The notes under the pieces are model-generated. The model ran no database searches and was not told the DNA's origin. It was given only the letters and a program-made list of their open reading frames with translations. A stretch of DNA of 64,000 nucleotides from Bacteroidota bacterium (lineage in GTDB: Bacteria > Bacteroidota > Bacteroidia > NS11-12g > UBA9320), in the NCBI GenBank assembly GCA_016124755.1, contig WGNA01000005.1, positions 62,001 to 126,000 on the forward strand, read 5' to 3'. The translations under genes and the position numbers were made by a program. Below are positions 1,411 to 23,552 of the stretch, piece after piece. How positions within the stretch are numbered: the stretch's first letter is position 1; each line of letters opens with the position of its first letter.

Positions 1411-2223
1411 ATGAATACAGATCAAATCATTGTTAAACTCACAGAAATTCTGGTTGAGTACGGTCCGAAGTTGATCGGTGCCATTGTCGTACTGATTGTG
1501 GGAACCTGGGTAATCAAACTTTTGGTAAAAGGCTTTACCCGATTGATGGAGAAGAGTAATGTTGATAATACCATCAGACCGTTTTTCAGAACCTTGGTTC
1601 ACGCATTACTAAGAGTGCTTTTAGTGCTGAGTGTTTTGGGAATGCTCGGAATTGAAATGACATCGTTCATTGCCATTCTGGGAGCGGTGGGTCTGGCAAT
1701 CGGCATGGCACTTTCCGGAACGCTGCAGAATTTTGCAGGCGGTGTGATTATACTGATATTTAAACCGTATAAAGTCGGTGATGTGATCGAAGCACAGGGC
1801 TACAAAGGTGTGGTAACAGCGATTCAGATTTTTAACACCATTCTTAGAACTCCCAATAACCGAACGGTAATTATTCCGAACGGACAAATGTCTACTTCAT
1901 CTATGGTCAACAACACAATGGAGGAAGATATGTGTGTGGAATGGATTTTTTCCATCAGTTACGGCGATAGCTATCCCAAAGCCAAAGAAGTAATTAAACA
2001 CTTGCTGGAAAACGACAGCCGGATACAAAAAGATAAGGATATTTTTATTGCACTTCTCGCAATGGCAGACAGTTCTATCAATATTGTAGCCCGCGCCTGG
2101 GTTCATAATTCAGATTACTGGGGAGTATTTTTTTCTATGAATGAACTGGTTTATGAAGCCTTCCCGAAAGAAGGACTCACAATTCCATTTCCTCAAATGG
2201 ATGTGCATGTTCACAAGCCGTGA
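1411..2223 (+). CDS. MscS-type small-conductance mechanosensitive channel (first of tandem pair)
   Basis: 270 residues, close to the size of E. coli MscS. Two hydrophobic segments at about 20-38 and 65-85 are followed by a Gly/Ala-rich pore helix at about 92-112 (GLAIGMALSGTLQNFAGG) and the beta domain (KVGDVIEAQG, then NNRTVIIPNG). Such channels form inner-membrane heptamers that open under membrane tension and release solutes on osmotic downshock. ATG at 1411 gives a full-length product. The gene lies 80 bp upstream of a paralogue of identical length, so the pair looks like a tandem duplication. The family call is secure. Gating behaviour cannot be read from sequence. Confidence 0.93.
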   Translation: MNTDQIIVKLTEILVEYGPKLIGAIVVLIVGTWVIKLLVKGFTRLMEKSNVDNTIRPFFRTLVHALLRVLLVLSVLGMLGIEMTSFIAILGAVGLAIGMALSGTLQNFAGGVIILIFKPYKVGDVIEAQGYKGVVTAIQIFNTILRTPNNRTVIIPNGQMSTSSMVNNTMEEDMCVEWIFSISYGDSYPKAKEVIKHLLENDSRIQKDKDIFIALLAMADSSINIVARAWVHNSDYWGVFFSMNELVYEAFPKEGLTIPFPQMDVHVHKP

Positions 2224-2279
2224 TTCCAATTTTATATTGATTTAATACACTTAATTCTGTGAGGCCGGTCTTGATTTTT

Positions 2280-2287
2280 TAGGTTTG
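2280..2287 (+). promoter_or_regulatory. Bacteroidota -7 box (TAGGTTTG) before second MscS gene
   Basis: A perfect TAnnTTTG match lies 16 bases before the ATG at 2304. No clear TTG at -33 is present, so the call rests on the -7 element alone. It would let the second channel be expressed apart from the first. Confidence 0.4.
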
Positions 2288-2303
2288 CCCTAAATTTCAA
2301 TTC

Positions 2304-3116
2304 ATGGATACAGAAAAAATTGTAGCAAAACTCACAGACATCTTTGTAGAATATGGCCCCCGGCTGGTTGGAGCTATTCTGGTTTTAATTATCGGTTTAT
2401 GGGTTGTTAAATTACTTACCAAAGGTTTTCTGAAAGCGATGCAGAAAGCCAATGTAGAAGAATCTCTCATCCCATTTTTAACCGGAATGATCCGGAATAT
2501 TCTCCGGATTATGTTGGTGCTGAGTGTACTTACTATGGTGGGTATTGAAATGACTTCTTTCATCGCCATTTTGGGTGCGGTTGGTCTGGCTGTTGGAATG
2601 GCATTGTCCGGCACACTTCAGAATTTTGCAGGCGGTGTGATCATTCTTCTTTTTAAGCCATTTAAAACAGGTGATTTTATTGAAGCGCAAGGTTATATGG
2701 GAACCGTAAACTCCATTCAGATATTCAATACCATTTTAAAAACACCCGACAATAAAACCATTGTGGTTCCCAATGGCGGATTGTCAACCGGCTCGCTCAT
2801 AAATTATAATCAGGAAGCAACCCGCCGGGTCGATTGGGTTTTCGGCATTGCTTACGGTGACGATTATGAACACGCAAAAAATGTAATCAGTCGTATGCTT
2901 AACGAAGATGAACGCGTGCTAAAAGAACCGGAATTTTTCATTGCCCTGCATCAGTTGGCCGACAGTTCGGTAAATATTGTTGTTCGCGCCTGGGTAAATA
3001 CACCTGATTACTGGGGAGTGTATTTCGACATGAACAAAAAAGTGTATTCTGTTTTCCCTATGGAAGGTCTTAATATTCCATTCCCACAAGTTGATGTTCA
3101 CTTACAGAAATCGTAA
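2304..3116 (+). CDS. MscS-type small-conductance mechanosensitive channel (second of tandem pair)
   Basis: 270 residues, alignable end to end without gaps to the preceding gene. The pore-lining helix is nearly identical (GLAVGMALSGTLQNFAGG), and so is the beta domain (KTGDFIEAQG, NKTIVVPNGG). Differences concentrate in the first 60 residues and in the C-terminal cytoplasmic cage, which would alter vestibule properties rather than the pore. It has its own candidate -7 box at 2280-2287. The C-terminus ends PFPQVDVHLQKS, the usual end of the MscS cage. Confidence 0.93.
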   Translation: MDTEKIVAKLTDIFVEYGPRLVGAILVLIIGLWVVKLLTKGFLKAMQKANVEESLIPFLTGMIRNILRIMLVLSVLTMVGIEMTSFIAILGAVGLAVGMALSGTLQNFAGGVIILLFKPFKTGDFIEAQGYMGTVNSIQIFNTILKTPDNKTIVVPNGGLSTGSLINYNQEATRRVDWVFGIAYGDDYEHAKNVISRMLNEDERVLKEPEFFIALHQLADSSVNIVVRAWVNTPDYWGVYFDMNKKVYSVFPMEGLNIPFPQVDVHLQKS

Positions 3117-4272: not shown

Positions 4273-4923
4273 TTAAATGAGCAAACCGTCTTTCATTACG
4301 ATTTTACGATCGGCCGAAGAAGCCAGTTCGTCGTTGTGTGTAACAATCACGAAAGTTTGTCCGAACTCATCCCGTAATCTGAAAAACATCTTGTGCAATT
4401 CAGAGGCATTTTCAGTATCCAGATTTCCGGAAGGCTCATCAGCAAGAACTGCTTTTGGCTGGTTCATCAGTGCTCTGGCAACGGCGACTCTTTGTTGTTC
4501 ACCTCCGCTTAATTGTGCGGGTTTATGCAGGAGTCGGTCTTTTAATCCTAAAAAGTCCAGCAGTTCGGCAGCCCTTTTTTCCGAAACCGATTTTTTAGCA
4601 CCAGAAATCAGTGCCGGCATGCACACATTTTCAATGGATGTGAATTCCGGAAGTAAATGGTGAAACTGAAAAATAAAACCGATGTTCCGGTTTCTGAATT
4701 CCGAGAGTTTTCGTGCACCAAGTGACGTAACCTCCATTTCATCATACCAGACTTCACCCTCGTCCGCCTTATCGAGCGTTCCCAGAATCTGAAGCAGCGT
4801 GGTTTTCCCGGCACCGGAAGCCCCGACAATACTAATTACTTCACCGGTTTGAATTTCCAGATTGATGTCTTTGAGAACCTCGAGATTCCCGTAAGACTTA
4901 CCAATATTGACAGCCCGAATCAA
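4273..4923 (-). CDS. ABC transporter ATP-binding protein, LolD/MacB subfamily
   Basis: 216 residues. Walker [10 protein letters not shown] (about 34-42), signature [15 protein letters not shown], Walker [13 protein letters not shown] and the H-loop IVTHND are all present, so the ATPase should be active. Sequence style is that of LolD-like subunits that drive lipoprotein release or FtsX-type permeases. No permease lies beside it, so its partner must be encoded elsewhere. It begins only 6 bp after the stop of the large M1 peptidase and is very likely co-transcribed with it. Confidence 0.9.
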
Positions 4924-4929
4924 AGCAGA

Positions 4930-7900
4930 TCAAAAGCTTCGGTTAATGCCAACCACATATCTGAATTTCAGATACTGATTTTCCTCTGCCGGAATGCGAT
5001 TGAGGAAGAAGGGCATATCAAATCTCAGATTCAATGCTTCAGGCGTTAATTTCGGAAGTCTTAAAACCACCATCGTTCCCAGCCCAGCATCTACTCTTAA
5101 TCCGCTCCATTGATTTGCTGAATTTCCCAAAACTCCTGCATCCGTAAACAGATAAGGATGCAACTGAAAATTGTTTTTGATCTTTCTTATTAATGAAGAT
5201 TTGAATACAAATAACCTTCTGATATCGAGTTCAAGACTCACTGAACTTCCCCGGGTTCCGGCAAAAATGTTAAAGGTATCTCCATTCTGAATATTGGTAG
5301 TTGCAACTCCGGCATAACCTCTCAGATTTAAACCTCCGCCTGCCTGAAAATTATTTCCGCTTCTGTCGAAACCATTGAAGTCGGCTCCGAAAATTCCTCT
5401 CGATCTGGTAAATCGGCTTTCCATCATTTCCGAAACATTTCCACCGCACATCAGTAACATCGATTCGGGGGCAATGCTCTTACCGTCCATGTATCTTGAA
5501 TACCAACGGCTTCTCAATGAAAGTTTTCCAAAATTTCTGTTGAACAGTAATTCAACACTTGCCCGTGCATACGAATAATACGAATTAACCGAAGTGGAAT
5601 AAGTGTTAATCTTCCAGACACCTCCGCCTTCCATTGTTCTGAAAGGAATGTCAAGCCCTGCCCGGATACCGGTTTCCCATTTGTCGATTGCGTTTCCAAA
5701 CTGTCGATAAATCAGATATTCGTTTCTTCTTCTCTGATTTCCGGAAACACCAAAGTGAATATTCACCTTTCCAAGTTCCCGCATCCAGCCGATTTCTTCG
5801 TATGTAAAACCATCAATAAATCGGCTTTTCAAACGCAATTCATTGTGCTGACCGGCTTGTGTTTTATACGAAAATGCATAAGACCAAAGATCGGGATTGT
5901 ACGGTTGAACGTCGAATGGATCAACAGAGTTAATGGTATTGTACCAAACGCCAAGATCCCAGATATGTCGGAGATTGAAGAAATTTCCATTCAGCTTTAC
6001 CCCCACTTTGGCAAAATCGGTTTTGTTGTACCAGATAGCCGGACGATAATAGGCAGAATACCTTCGGAAGGATGAATACTTATAACCTGTTTTTTCAAAG
6101 CGAATATCAACCGGGAATTTCTTGCTGTTGTTTAATCGGTTCACATCTGCAAGTCTTCCGGAAGAATCAATTACCACATCACGAATTCCGTTTTCAACAT
6201 GAATAACTGCTTCATATTCGGGTTGAACCAAATCAAATCCCAACCAGGTCGGAAGAATGGTGGCCGAAGTTTTTTTCTGGAAATAGGTATTCGGAATATA
6301 AAACTCATGTCGCTTGCCGTCCCGACTCACAACGGTTAAATCAACCGGCATTTGCGCCCCGAGTCTTTTTATTTTAATTCGGTAGTTGTCGTCTCCCAAC
6401 GATTTAATTCCGGCGAGTTTGTAATCAATCACCGAAGTGTTCTCGATCCATTCATCAAAAAACCAGTTGAGATCAACTTTAGTAAACCGGATAATGGATG
6501 AACGAAAATCTTCCCAATACGGATGACAGAACTTCCATTGATCGAAGTAGTTTTTAATGGCTGAAGCAAACAGCTCTTCTCCGAGTACGTACTCGAGATT
6601 ATTGAGCATTGTTGCCGTTTTATAATAAACCTGACCATACCCTCCGCCATGTCGTTCTGCCGAATTAAAATGATCTGAATGAATGTTTAGTCTGGCAGTA
6701 TTGTCTCCCATCGCATGAGCCATATATCCATAATATACGGTTCCGTCATCGGTATTATTCGGGTACGTAGTTACATTGTTAATTCTCTTTAGTGAAAGTG
6801 CTGTAAGAAACTGAGTGAAGCCTTCATCAAGCGAAGCCCGGTACGTCTCATTGTTGCCAACCATCCCAAAAAACCAATTATGGCCTACCTCGTGCGCAAT
6901 CACATATTTGTGTCCGGGCCAATTGCCTCCATCAAGAGTTAACATCGGATATTCCATTCCGTCTGCGGCGTCTGCGGCAATCATCTTCGGGTAGGCATAA
7001 TCTCCGATTTCCCGACTGTAAACGTTTACCACTTCGGCAACAAACTTCGCCGTTGGCCCCCAAAGGTGAGCGTGTTCCTCCTGTGCCAGAGCCAGACAAA
7101 TAGCTCCGTTATCTGCCTTGTATTCTCCAATTCTGTAAGTGGGATCTGCGGTAAATGCAAAGTCGTGAACGTTAATCGCTCTGAATTTCCAGGTCTTGGT
7201 TGTTCCGTTTGGCGGTACGGGGTTGGTGTAAACATCCCGCTCTGTCTTGTAATTGCTGATATCTATTCTCTGACGCAGATCTCCCGGGTAAACTTCTTTG
7301 GCATTTTGAAGTTCTCCGGTTGCTTCAACAATATATTGATTTGGGAAAGTGAGACTCACTTCATAAATGCCATAATCTCCATAAAACTCTTTCATGAGAT
7401 GCTGGTCGGTAGTCCAACCAAATTTTCGGTCGTAAACAGAAATTCTCGGATACCAATGCACTCCATCGAAATGCACAAAATCCTGATTGTATTTGTCCTT
7501 CCCGTGGCGAAAAGTTTTCATCCGGCGACGGATATTTCCCTTGTCTTCCTTGTCCCAATACGTTTTGAATTCAATGCTGATTGTGATGCCGGTTCCGGAT
7601 TTTAATGGTTGAGAAAGGTCGACCCACATAATAGAATTATCCATTATATAGGTGGAGACGTTACCATTAACTGAAAGCGAAGAAATGGTTGTTCCAAGTC
7701 CTTTTGATTCGCTGTCTCCGTAAGTCGATTTCACCTTGTCGTTTTTCCGCATATCGGCGAGATACGATCCCGGGACAAACGCATTCTGATAAAGATGAAA
7801 ATAGATCCGGTTGAGATTGTCCGGGGAATTATTCCAATACGTGACTTCGAGATTTCCGGAAACAGACTCTTCCTGATCATCAACTACCGCATCAATTTTA

Positions 7901-8064
7901 TAATGTACATCCTGTTGCCAATAATCAGCGAAAGGTTTGCGGTTTTTCCAGTAATATTTATTTGAAACGCTCTGGTATTCTTTAAGTGCCGAGGTCAGGT
8001 TTTGCCCGGATGCGATTGTACTTACAGCAAATACAACCGAAATAAAAATCAATGTTTTACGCAT
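4930..8064 (-). CDS. M1-family zinc metallopeptidase fused to a C-terminal outer-membrane-barrel-like region
   Basis: Start set at ATG 8064, which begins a clear signal peptide (MRKTLIFISVVFAVSTIASG). The frame continues upstream only to a TTG at 8082. Product 1044 residues. Residues 20-600 are an M1 (gluzincin) peptidase: exopeptidase motif GMEYP at 369-373, zinc site HEVGH at 391-395, and the third ligand E414, exactly the HExxH-x18-E spacing. From about 650 to the end the protein turns into alternating-strand sequence (WYNKTDFAKVGVKLNGNF), contains LRGY in GGGLNLRGYAG and ends in NRSF with a terminal Phe, as outer-membrane barrels do. M1 enzymes of this group are usually shorter. The peptidase is probably tethered to the outer membrane. 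It lies between folE and the LolD-like gene. Confidence 0.88.
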   Translation of the reverse strand: MRKTLIFISVVFAVSTIASGQNLTSALKEYQSVSNKYYWKNRKPFADYWQQDVHYKIDAVVDDQEESVSGNLEVTYWNNSPDNLNRIYFHLYQNAFVPGSYLADMRKNDKVKSTYGDSESKGLGTTISSLSVNGNVSTYIMDNSIMWVDLSQPLKSGTGITISIEFKTYWDKEDKGNIRRRMKTFRHGKDKYNQDFVHFDGVHWYPRISVYDRKFGWTTDQHLMKEFYGDYGIYEVSLTFPNQYIVEATGELQNAKEVYPGDLRQRIDISNYKTERDVYTNPVPPNGTTKTWKFRAINVHDFAFTADPTYRIGEYKADNGAICLALAQEEHAHLWGPTAKFVAEVVNVYSREIGDYAYPKMIAADAADGMEYPMLTLDGGNWPGHKYVIAHEVGHNWFFGMVGNNETYRASLDEGFTQFLTALSLKRINNVTTYPNNTDDGTVYYGYMAHAMGDNTARLNIHSDHFNSAERHGGGYGQVYYKTATMLNNLEYVLGEELFASAIKNYFDQWKFCHPYWEDFRSSIIRFTKVDLNWFFDEWIENTSVIDYKLAGIKSLGDDNYRIKIKRLGAQMPVDLTVVSRDGKRHEFYIPNTYFQKKTSATILPTWLGFDLVQPEYEAVIHVENGIRDVVIDSSGRLADVNRLNNSKKFPVDIRFEKTGYKYSSFRRYSAYYRPAIWYNKTDFAKVGVKLNGNFFNLRHIWDLGVWYNTINSVDPFDVQPYNPDLWSYAFSYKTQAGQHNELRLKSRFIDGFTYEEIGWMRELGKVNIHFGVSGNQRRRNEYLIYRQFGNAIDKWETGIRAGLDIPFRTMEGGGVWKINTYSTSVNSYYSYARASVELLFNRNFGKLSLRSRWYSRYMDGKSIAPESMLLMCGGNVSEMMESRFTRSRGIFGADFNGFDRSGNNFQAGGGLNLRGYAGVATTNIQNGDTFNIFAGTRGSSVSLELDIRRLFVFKSSLIRKIKNNFQLHPYLFTDAGVLGNSANQWSGLRVDAGLGTMVVLRLPKLTPEALNLRFDMPFFLNRIPAEENQYLKFRYVVGINRSF

Positions 8065-21816: not shown

Positions 21817-21866
21817 TCACTTTGCTTATTTTCGAAACGCTTTCAAATCAATTGCTTAACATCTAC

Positions 21867-23552
21867 ATGAAAACAAGGGACATAAAAATAATTGCTTCTG
21901 CTCTTTTATTTACTTTTTATCTGGGAGCTAATGCACAAACCGTTACAACTTTTGCCGGACAAGACAACAGTACAGATTGGGCAAATAATTTTAATAACAG
22001 TACGGCAACTTTAAGTCAGGCTTATTTTTATCTGCCAGAAGGAATTTGCTGGGATAACAACGGCAAGATGTACATCACCGAATCAAACAAAATAAGACTG
22101 ATCGACGGAAATGATGTTTACAACAGAAGTGGTGCTCTGGGCGATCCGTCGTTCTCACTGGGTTTTCATGATGGCACCGGAGTCGCCGGAAAATATTACT
22201 CGCCAACTTCTGCGGTTTGCGATGCTTCAGGCAATGTTTATATAGTGGATTCTGAAAACCACGCTATCCGGAAATTAGCCCCTTTTGTTAATGTTGGAAA
22301 CGGACAGGTACTTGCAACCTTTGCCGGTGGTGCTCCGGACGGAACACAAAGCGCGAAAGGAACACCGGATCACAAAGACGCAACCGGAACTGCCTCCAGA
22401 TTCAACACTCCAAAGGGAATTACCATGGATGCCAGTGGCAACATGTACGTAACAGATTACAACAATTACTGTATTCGTAAGATAACTTCGTCCGGCGTGG
22501 TAACAACACTTTCCGGTAAACCCGGCACTGATGGTTCGGATGACGGAACCGGTGGAGCTAATTGCACATTTGGCGGACCTTACGGAATTGCCATGCTCGA
22601 TGCGAACAATGTTATTATCACAGATAACTGGAACCTCACAATTCGAAAAGTTAATATCACTTCGGGATCTACCACAACTATCTGTGGTAAAACAGGTGTT
22701 CTTGGAACCAAAGACGGTTCTCTTTCTGAAGCTACCTTCAAAAGCCCGAAAGGAATTGCGGTTGTTAACGGATTAATATATGTTGCCGACGATTCGCGTA
22801 TTCGTGTAATCGATCTTACCAACGGAACCGTGAGCACATTTGCGGGAAGCAGCAGTCAGGGTCTTGAAGACGGAGTTGGTGACAAGGCAAAATTCGGAAG
22901 GCTTGCAGGTCTTGCATACGATGGCAACAATGCCCTTTTTGCAACAGATGTTTATTTTAATGTTATCCGCAAAATAACCATTGACAACCTCGCTCCTACT
23001 GCGAATTTCACGGCAACCAAAACGTCATTGGTGGTAAATGAAGAAACCACCTTAAGCGATATCAGCGGTGGCAAACCGGCGACTTCCAGAAAATGGGATG
23101 TTAAAAATCAGCAAACCGGAGCAACGGTAAACGTATCCGTTGTTAGTGGAGATCTAAACAGTTCTTCTTCTGTTACAGTTAAGTTTCTGGCCACCGGATT
23201 CTATACGGTCGCACTAACCGTAACTAATGAGTTCGGCACCGATAAAGCTGAGAAAGCTCCGTACATCAACGTTTCCACCACGGGCATTGAAACACTGGAT
23301 CAGTTGAGCAATCTCAAAATCTATCCGAACCCTCTTCCCGGCGGTAGCGATATCAATCTGTTTTTGGGTAATGGAAACTTTCAAAATGCTACCATCGAAC
23401 TGATGGATGCCACCGGACGTACCCTTCAGGTGTTCGAAAATGTGAATGGTTCATCTTTTCAGATCCATTCTCCGGCGCTTACTTCCGGAAACTATTTCGT
23501 TGTGGTTAGAAGTGCAAATCTAACCGGGGCGAAAATGATTAGCGTTCAATAA
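21867..23552 (+). CDS. NHL-repeat secreted protein with T9SS type A sorting domain
   Basis: 561 residues from ATG 21867, which opens the signal peptide (KIIASALLFTFYLGANAQT). Residues 20-390 hold about six NHL beta-propeller blades (for example ICWDNNGKMYITESNKIRLI and ITMDASGNMYVTDYNNYCIR), followed by a PKD-like domain (about 395-480, ending in FYTVALTVTNEFGTDKA). The final 80 residues are a type IX secretion sorting domain with IYPNP and GNYFVVV. The protein should be exported through the T9SS and attached to, or released from, the surface. Ligand unknown. Confidence 0.92.
   Translation: MKTRDIKIIASALLFTFYLGANAQTVTTFAGQDNSTDWANNFNNSTATLSQAYFYLPEGICWDNNGKMYITESNKIRLIDGNDVYNRSGALGDPSFSLGFHDGTGVAGKYYSPTSAVCDASGNVYIVDSENHAIRKLAPFVNVGNGQVLATFAGGAPDGTQSAKGTPDHKDATGTASRFNTPKGITMDASGNMYVTDYNNYCIRKITSSGVVTTLSGKPGTDGSDDGTGGANCTFGGPYGIAMLDANNVIITDNWNLTIRKVNITSGSTTTICGKTGVLGTKDGSLSEATFKSPKGIAVVNGLIYVADDSRIRVIDLTNGTVSTFAGSSSQGLEDGVGDKAKFGRLAGLAYDGNNALFATDVYFNVIRKITIDNLAPTANFTATKTSLVVNEETTLSDISGGKPATSRKWDVKNQQTGATVNVSVVSGDLNSSSSVTVKFLATGFYTVALTVTNEFGTDKAEKAPYINVSTTGIETLDQLSNLKIYPNPLPGGSDINLFLGNGNFQNATIELMDATGRTLQVFENVNGSSFQIHSPALTSGNYFVVVRSANLTGAKMISVQ

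Follow-up and report, generated by a model that had tools for sequence, protein, structure and literature searches.

A conserved fusion of an M1 metallopeptidase and a predicted Omp85-type beta-barrel in Bacteroidota

A gene in a 64,000-nucleotide stretch of Bacteroidota DNA (hereafter, the window) encodes an M1 peptidase module and an Omp85-type barrel in a single chain of 1044 aa, as had been noticed from the sequence in an earlier reading (the original prediction). The gene occupies positions 4930-8064, with the ATG at 8064 and the stop codon at 4930-4932. These coordinates had been given correctly; the strand, missing there, is minus, and the first forward-strand frame across the same interval is riddled with stops. 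From the computed M1 site, Omp85 fold and fusion we infer membrane insertion, the side of the membrane on which the enzyme lies and its activity, and consider that the protein is probably an outer-membrane-anchored, periplasmic M1 aminopeptidase.

Domain layout and the M1 module

The chain starts with a signal peptide of the Sec type without a lipobox, read from the sequence (residues 1-20, MRKTLIFISVVFAVSTIASG; positions 8005..8064, minus strand, as for all features of the gene given below), and hydrophobic N-termini of the same kind are also present in relatives. It is followed by the M1 metallopeptidase module (residues 21-647; 6124..8004), delimited by Pfam, Foldseek and the ends of soluble M1 relatives, by a linker lacking a POTRA domain (residues 648-668; 6061..6123), delimited by the AlphaFold2 secondary structure and by the M1 relatives that stop just ahead of it, and by a 16-stranded Omp85-type beta-barrel predicted with AlphaFold2 and Foldseek against the PDB (residues 669-1044; 4933..6060). 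A single, uninterrupted fused frame recurs in dozens of independent genomes, which excludes an assembly artefact as the source of the fusion. Extra N-terminal domains suggested by frames of 1522 and 1695 aa in two relatives were rejected, because the additional sequence is GC-rich open frame upstream of the usual start.

Peptidase_M1 (PF01433) matches residues 387-539 with E=1.7e-15 and 57.7 bits against a Pfam cut-off of 27.7. The module consists of an N-terminal beta domain, the catalytic domain and a beta-sandwich, without the helical C-terminal domain, and in a Foldseek search the full model was aligned with M1 structures (IRAP, ERAP1 and ERAP2) at E about 1e-22 across about 650 columns. 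All elements of the M1 site named in the original prediction are present and invariant in the covering relatives: the HEVGH zinc-binding motif (residues 391-395; 6880..6894), with H391, E392 and H395 conserved in 34 of 34; the third zinc ligand, E414 (6823..6825; 35 of 35); and GMEY (residues 369-372; 6949..6960; 34 of 34), the counterpart of the GxMEN aminopeptidase motif. In all 34 relatives, GMEY retains the Glu of this exopeptidase motif and carries Tyr in place of Asn. Likewise, Y480 of VYYKT (6625..6627), the counterpart of the M1 catalytic tyrosine, is invariant in 35 of 35 covering relatives and pairs with the YxKG motif in an alignment to an M1 enzyme of solved structure. Because the catalytic residues and GMEY are invariant in the covering relatives, the M1 enzyme is very probably active.

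The M1 module ends near residue 647 with RLADVNRLNN, past the beta-sandwich that follows the catalytic domain, and the same motif also closes the soluble M1 proteins, about 630 aa long, that relatives encode. Furthermore, plasmid-borne M1 proteins, some of them from another phylum, align up to query residues 646-647; in the plasmid search with the whole protein, the five matches listed covered the M1 half only, and query coverage of at least 80% was reached in no record. Given that the M1 relatives end at 646-647 and that the barrel begins at 669, the fusion joins two whole modules through a linker of about 20 residues. No POTRA was found by Pfam or in the AlphaFold2 secondary structure, either between the halves or elsewhere in the protein, in line with the initial impression that no such segment separates them. 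POTRA-less Omp85 subfamilies have been recognized (PMC4104836).

The C-terminal barrel and its loop 6

The C-terminal half had been proposed to be an outer-membrane barrel, with a predicted closed barrel of 14-18 strands named as support. In the AlphaFold2 model, built on a 36-sequence alignment (mean pLDDT of 83.1 over the full chain, and of 84.5 in a model of only the barrel), the strand map indeed comprises 16 strands, from residue 669 to 1040. Comparison of the barrel model with the PDB using Foldseek yielded 117 matches at E<=0.001, of which the best 50 all belong to the Omp85 superfamily by title, namely, TamA, yeast Sam50 and BamA or BAM complexes, with TamA 4c00 at the top (E=3.4e-9); the TM-scores were moderate (0.38-0.52 by query). 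A soluble beta-sandwich or immunoglobulin-like fold of the C-terminal half was rejected, since AlphaFold2 predicts a barrel and the Omp85 superfamily accounts for the fold matches listed.

Sequence profiles gave a different picture. The barrel, searched as a single sequence or as a profile built from 36 relatives, produced chance matches only against Pfam and PDB sequences; the Pfam Omp85 family (PF01103) was matched by none of the 36 fused and none of the 15 barrel-only barrels, and an Omp85 family search of the organism's own genome does not retrieve the fusion gene. The HMM search proposed as a check was thus negative: no profile recognizes the barrel, although its predicted fold is that of Omp85. 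We regard the failed PF01103 match as a matter of detection that is outweighed by the fold and the motif described below. In profile-profile comparisons with hhalign, the barrel profile scored 39 against Bacteroidota Omp85 lipoproteins, compared to 13-21 for reversed and shuffled controls, with GGGLNLRGY and FxDAG paired up; as a yardstick, BamA and Omp85-lipoprotein, whose kinship is accepted, reach 28 with each other in the same comparison. Against Bacteroidota BamA barrels alone, the barrel profile remained at the control level (20 versus 13-19). A pooled profile of fused and barrel-only sequences scored 36 and 34, compared to 15 and 20 for reversed controls. The profile-profile E-values are weak, and the BamA comparison exceeded the controls only once the barrel-only relatives had joined; these scores agree with an Omp85 identity but are weak by themselves.

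Loop 6, assigned from the AlphaFold2 strand map, spans 74 residues between strands 11 and 12 (residues 864-937; 5254..5475). It contains LRGY (residues 914-917; 5314..5325), the counterpart of the Omp85 VRGF/Y motif, in which R915 is invariant in 36 of 36 relatives; F. johnsoniae BamA also has LRGY. Equally invariant (36 of 36) are E945 in strand 12 (5230..5232), the counterpart of BamA E717; F973 and D975 of F973-T-D975 in strand 13 (5140..5148), D975 being the counterpart of BamA D740; and the C-terminal Phe1044 (4933..4935). Of the features first noticed in this half, R915 of LRGY and the terminal Phe are thus conserved across the relatives. The contact partners of the loop-6 RGF motif in E. 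coli BamA are E717, on strand 12, and D740, on strand 13 (PMC3871556); R661 and E717 form a salt bridge (PMC12505904). R915, E945 and D975 fall at the positions of BamA R661, E717 and D740, on equivalent strands, and the R, E, F and D counterparts are also invariant in 15 of 15 barrel-only relatives. These residue positions predict that the Omp85 loop-6 lock, R915 with E945 and D975, is present. Taken together, the fold search, the strand count and the invariant motif residues support the assignment of the C-terminal half as an Omp85-type barrel.

Distribution and gene neighborhoods

The barrel profile matches in 70 of the 108 genomes of the order and in 166 of the 295 Bacteroidia genomes, the other 129 being without a match, and the fusion is present in most of these 166 genomes. 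Among the matches listed, nearly all are located in frames of about 950-1120 aa; about nine frames are shorter, and several of these may reflect contig ends. Outside the class, the barrel occurs on its own as a protein of 400-440 aa, chiefly in two families within the phylum, and no M1 gene was found in the surrounding 9-10 kb. Such barrel-only relatives in other Bacteroidota (L144-L156 and L159; e.g., L144:4003-5250:-) are usually encoded beside a NUDIX-like gene and carry the full set of Omp85 loop-6 lock residues, without a Pfam match. Within the class, two genomes (G480 and G508) encode the barrel alone and, elsewhere in the genome, a soluble M1 protein of 635-658 aa. Thus, barrel-only, enzyme-only and fused forms all exist.

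The organism's own genome encodes a further M1 protein (C24, 1024 aa; G000:C24:34708-36180, L002:1384-4455:+). The C-terminal half of this paralogue has a strand-rich look, lacks LRGY and is diverged, aligning with the barrel profile only at the first 50 columns. Proteins like it are common in the family. On Bacteroidales contigs (L067, L065, L076 and L078), M1 peptidase genes are found in tandem.

Directly downstream of the fusion gene, on the same strand, lies a gene for a LolD-like ABC ATPase (4273..4923, minus strand), which reaches 263 bits with TIGR02211, below the cut-off of 307.75. It adjoins the fusion gene in all loci of the same taxonomic family with enough sequence to show it, and folE and queD are often located upstream in that family. 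Because the LolD linkage is confined to the same taxonomic family, we did not use it as evidence of function. In more distant relatives, 11 loci carry a downstream gene for a TPR-like, exported protein (about 258 aa; e.g., L037:9333-10106:+). BBJ25 of Borrelia, likewise a POTRA-less Omp85 protein, has TPR proteins and an ABC transporter of the Lol-like type as neighbors (PMC13078400), and the parallel with the neighborhoods of the fusion gene may serve as a lead only. In one sister genus, a protein of 378-386 aa with a Pfam Omp85 match and without POTRA is encoded convergently to the LolD-like gene beside the fusion (L160:786-1943:+, L161:793-1926:-, L162:853-1992:- and L163:682-1815:+); no such gene is found at the corresponding place in the window. 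Elsewhere in the window, we recognized by eye a tandem pair of genes for MscS-like channels, each of 270 aa (1411-3116), and an ORF of 576 aa carries a T9SS C-terminal sorting tail (21822-23552).

Side of the membrane, proposed role and relation to known systems

As a rule, the loops of outer-membrane barrels are long on the outside, and the turns on the inside are short. In the model, the loops after odd strands add up to 143 residues, compared to 38 after even strands, which, by this rule, implies that strand 1 starts in the periplasm, as in known Omp85 structures. Since the N-terminus of the barrel would then be periplasmic, the linker spans 20 residues and loop 6 occupies the lumen, the M1 domain can be expected in the periplasm; judging from the Omp85 fold and the loop lengths, it most likely lies just inside the outer membrane.

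In the mechanism that we propose, the protein would be exported by Sec and its signal peptide then cleaved off, whereupon BAM would insert the C-terminal POTRA-less Omp85 barrel into the outer membrane, with loop 6 locked inside the barrel by R915-E945/D975 and the last strand ending in Phe. The M1 module would hang at the periplasmic face, the short linker holding it right under the barrel mouth, and could trim N-terminal residues from peptides reaching the inner side of the outer membrane. Candidate substrates would be peptides from import, on the one hand, or degradation products and stalled proteins of the envelope, on the other.

Among the alternatives, we consider rather unlikely a role in envelope assembly or quality control, in which the barrel would retain Omp85 activity and insert proteins or lipids, while the M1 module, replacing POTRA, would bind or trim the clients, somewhat like BepA, which works beside BAM. 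The complete conservation of the loop-6 lock residues of active Omp85 proteins would fit such a role, as would the maintenance of the barrel without M1 in other Bacteroidota, the LolD-like ATPase gene directly after the fusion in the same family and the TPR gene downstream in 11 other loci. However, the protein lacks a POTRA for client handling, PlpD likewise retains an Omp85 barrel and has no known insertase role, and the LolD and TPR neighbors are each limited to some lineages. Moreover, the absence of a match in 129 of 295 Bacteroidia argues against a core machine.

The original prediction went further on another point, envisaging a surface-displayed, peptide-scavenging enzyme. In this type Vd-like route, the barrel, alone or with BAM, would carry the M1 domain over the outer membrane, and the aminopeptidase would act on the surface. 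TpsB-type Omp85 relatives do translocate proteins, and here, as in PlpD, a protein originally described as secreted (PMC11116518), the enzyme and the Omp85 barrel that follows it share one chain. However, when PlpD (type Vd) was re-examined in 2024, the enzyme domain was found to be periplasmic (PMC11116518). Furthermore, the M1 module is large and globular, in contrast to the beta-helical passengers threaded through barrels, it is tethered by a linker of about 20 residues, and the Omp85 orientation and loop lengths place the junction in the periplasm. In addition, the T9SS gives the organism another way to the surface: its own genome has about 150 T9SS tails, one of them on another M1 protein, of 656 aa. 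Thus, the M1 enzyme with an Omp85-type barrel stands, on the evidence of fold, strands and motif, whereas the topology, the short linker, PlpD and the T9SS speak against the scavenging role outside; surface display of the M1 domain is unlikely, and the type Vd-like route quite improbable. Finally, an import pore with a built-in peptidase, whereby peptides would pass through the barrel and be trimmed at the M1 site below, is highly improbable: the short linker would put the M1 site beneath the barrel mouth, but Omp85 barrels are plugged by loop 6, the lock residues are invariant here, and no recurring SusD-like or TonB-dependent partner was seen among the neighbors, which were clustered, with few annotated.

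Omp85 proteins are familiar mainly as protein-inserting or protein-translocating machines equipped with POTRA domains. The outer-membrane-anchored aminopeptidase that we favor resembles PlpD and the patatin-like Omp85 proteins in being a single chain with a signal peptide, a catalytic domain and, at the C-terminus, an Omp85 barrel of 16 strands. It differs in having an M1 domain instead of the patatin phospholipase, in lacking the one POTRA that accompanies patatin in PlpD-type proteins, in a barrel unrecognized by the Omp85 Pfam model and in its lineage, Bacteroidota. The 'Metallo' subfamily of Omp85 also has a metal-dependent enzyme domain before a POTRA-less Omp85 barrel; its domain is PF00149, which, following Pfam, we take to be the calcineurin-like phosphoesterase family, whereas that of the window protein is PF01433. 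Assignment to 'Metallo' was rejected, no PF00149 match being found at E up to 10. In the survey of Heinz and Lithgow (2014; PMC4104836), where PF00149 is called a metalloprotease, ten Omp85 subfamilies are distinguished, including patatin, WD40, 'Metallo' (PF00149), lipoprotein and no-N-terminus, and the M1 type is absent from the ten. No earlier report of M1-Omp85 was found in the open-licence literature, to which the search was limited. That M1-Omp85 is an uncatalogued subfamily with the peptidase in place of POTRA, its barrel actively passing peptides or unfolded envelope proteins to the peptidase or away from it, is conceivable and, on balance, doubtful.

The 'noNterm' Omp85 proteins and Borrelia BBJ25 (PMC13078400) have a POTRA-less barrel without an enzyme domain, a build also found in the barrel-only relatives. 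Conversely, soluble M1 metallopeptidases (e.g., in Riemerella, Xanthomonas and Bacteroidota) are homologous over residues 21-647 (26-35% identity) and share the same end point, but lack the barrel. Aminopeptidase N, ERAP and IRAP resemble the enzyme in the fold of the first three domains, HExxH-E and the catalytic Tyr, but have a helical C-terminal domain instead of the barrel and GxMEN instead of GMEY. The fusion is present in over half of the sampled Bacteroidia genomes, yet has been overlooked by standard profile searches, and its natural barrel-only and enzyme-only relatives offer a clean system for addressing the role of an Omp85 barrel when it is not an insertase. We conclude that M1-Omp85 is an Omp85 protein of the catalytic-domain kind that lacks POTRA and brings in a new enzyme, which extends this set of proteins beyond the patatin type.
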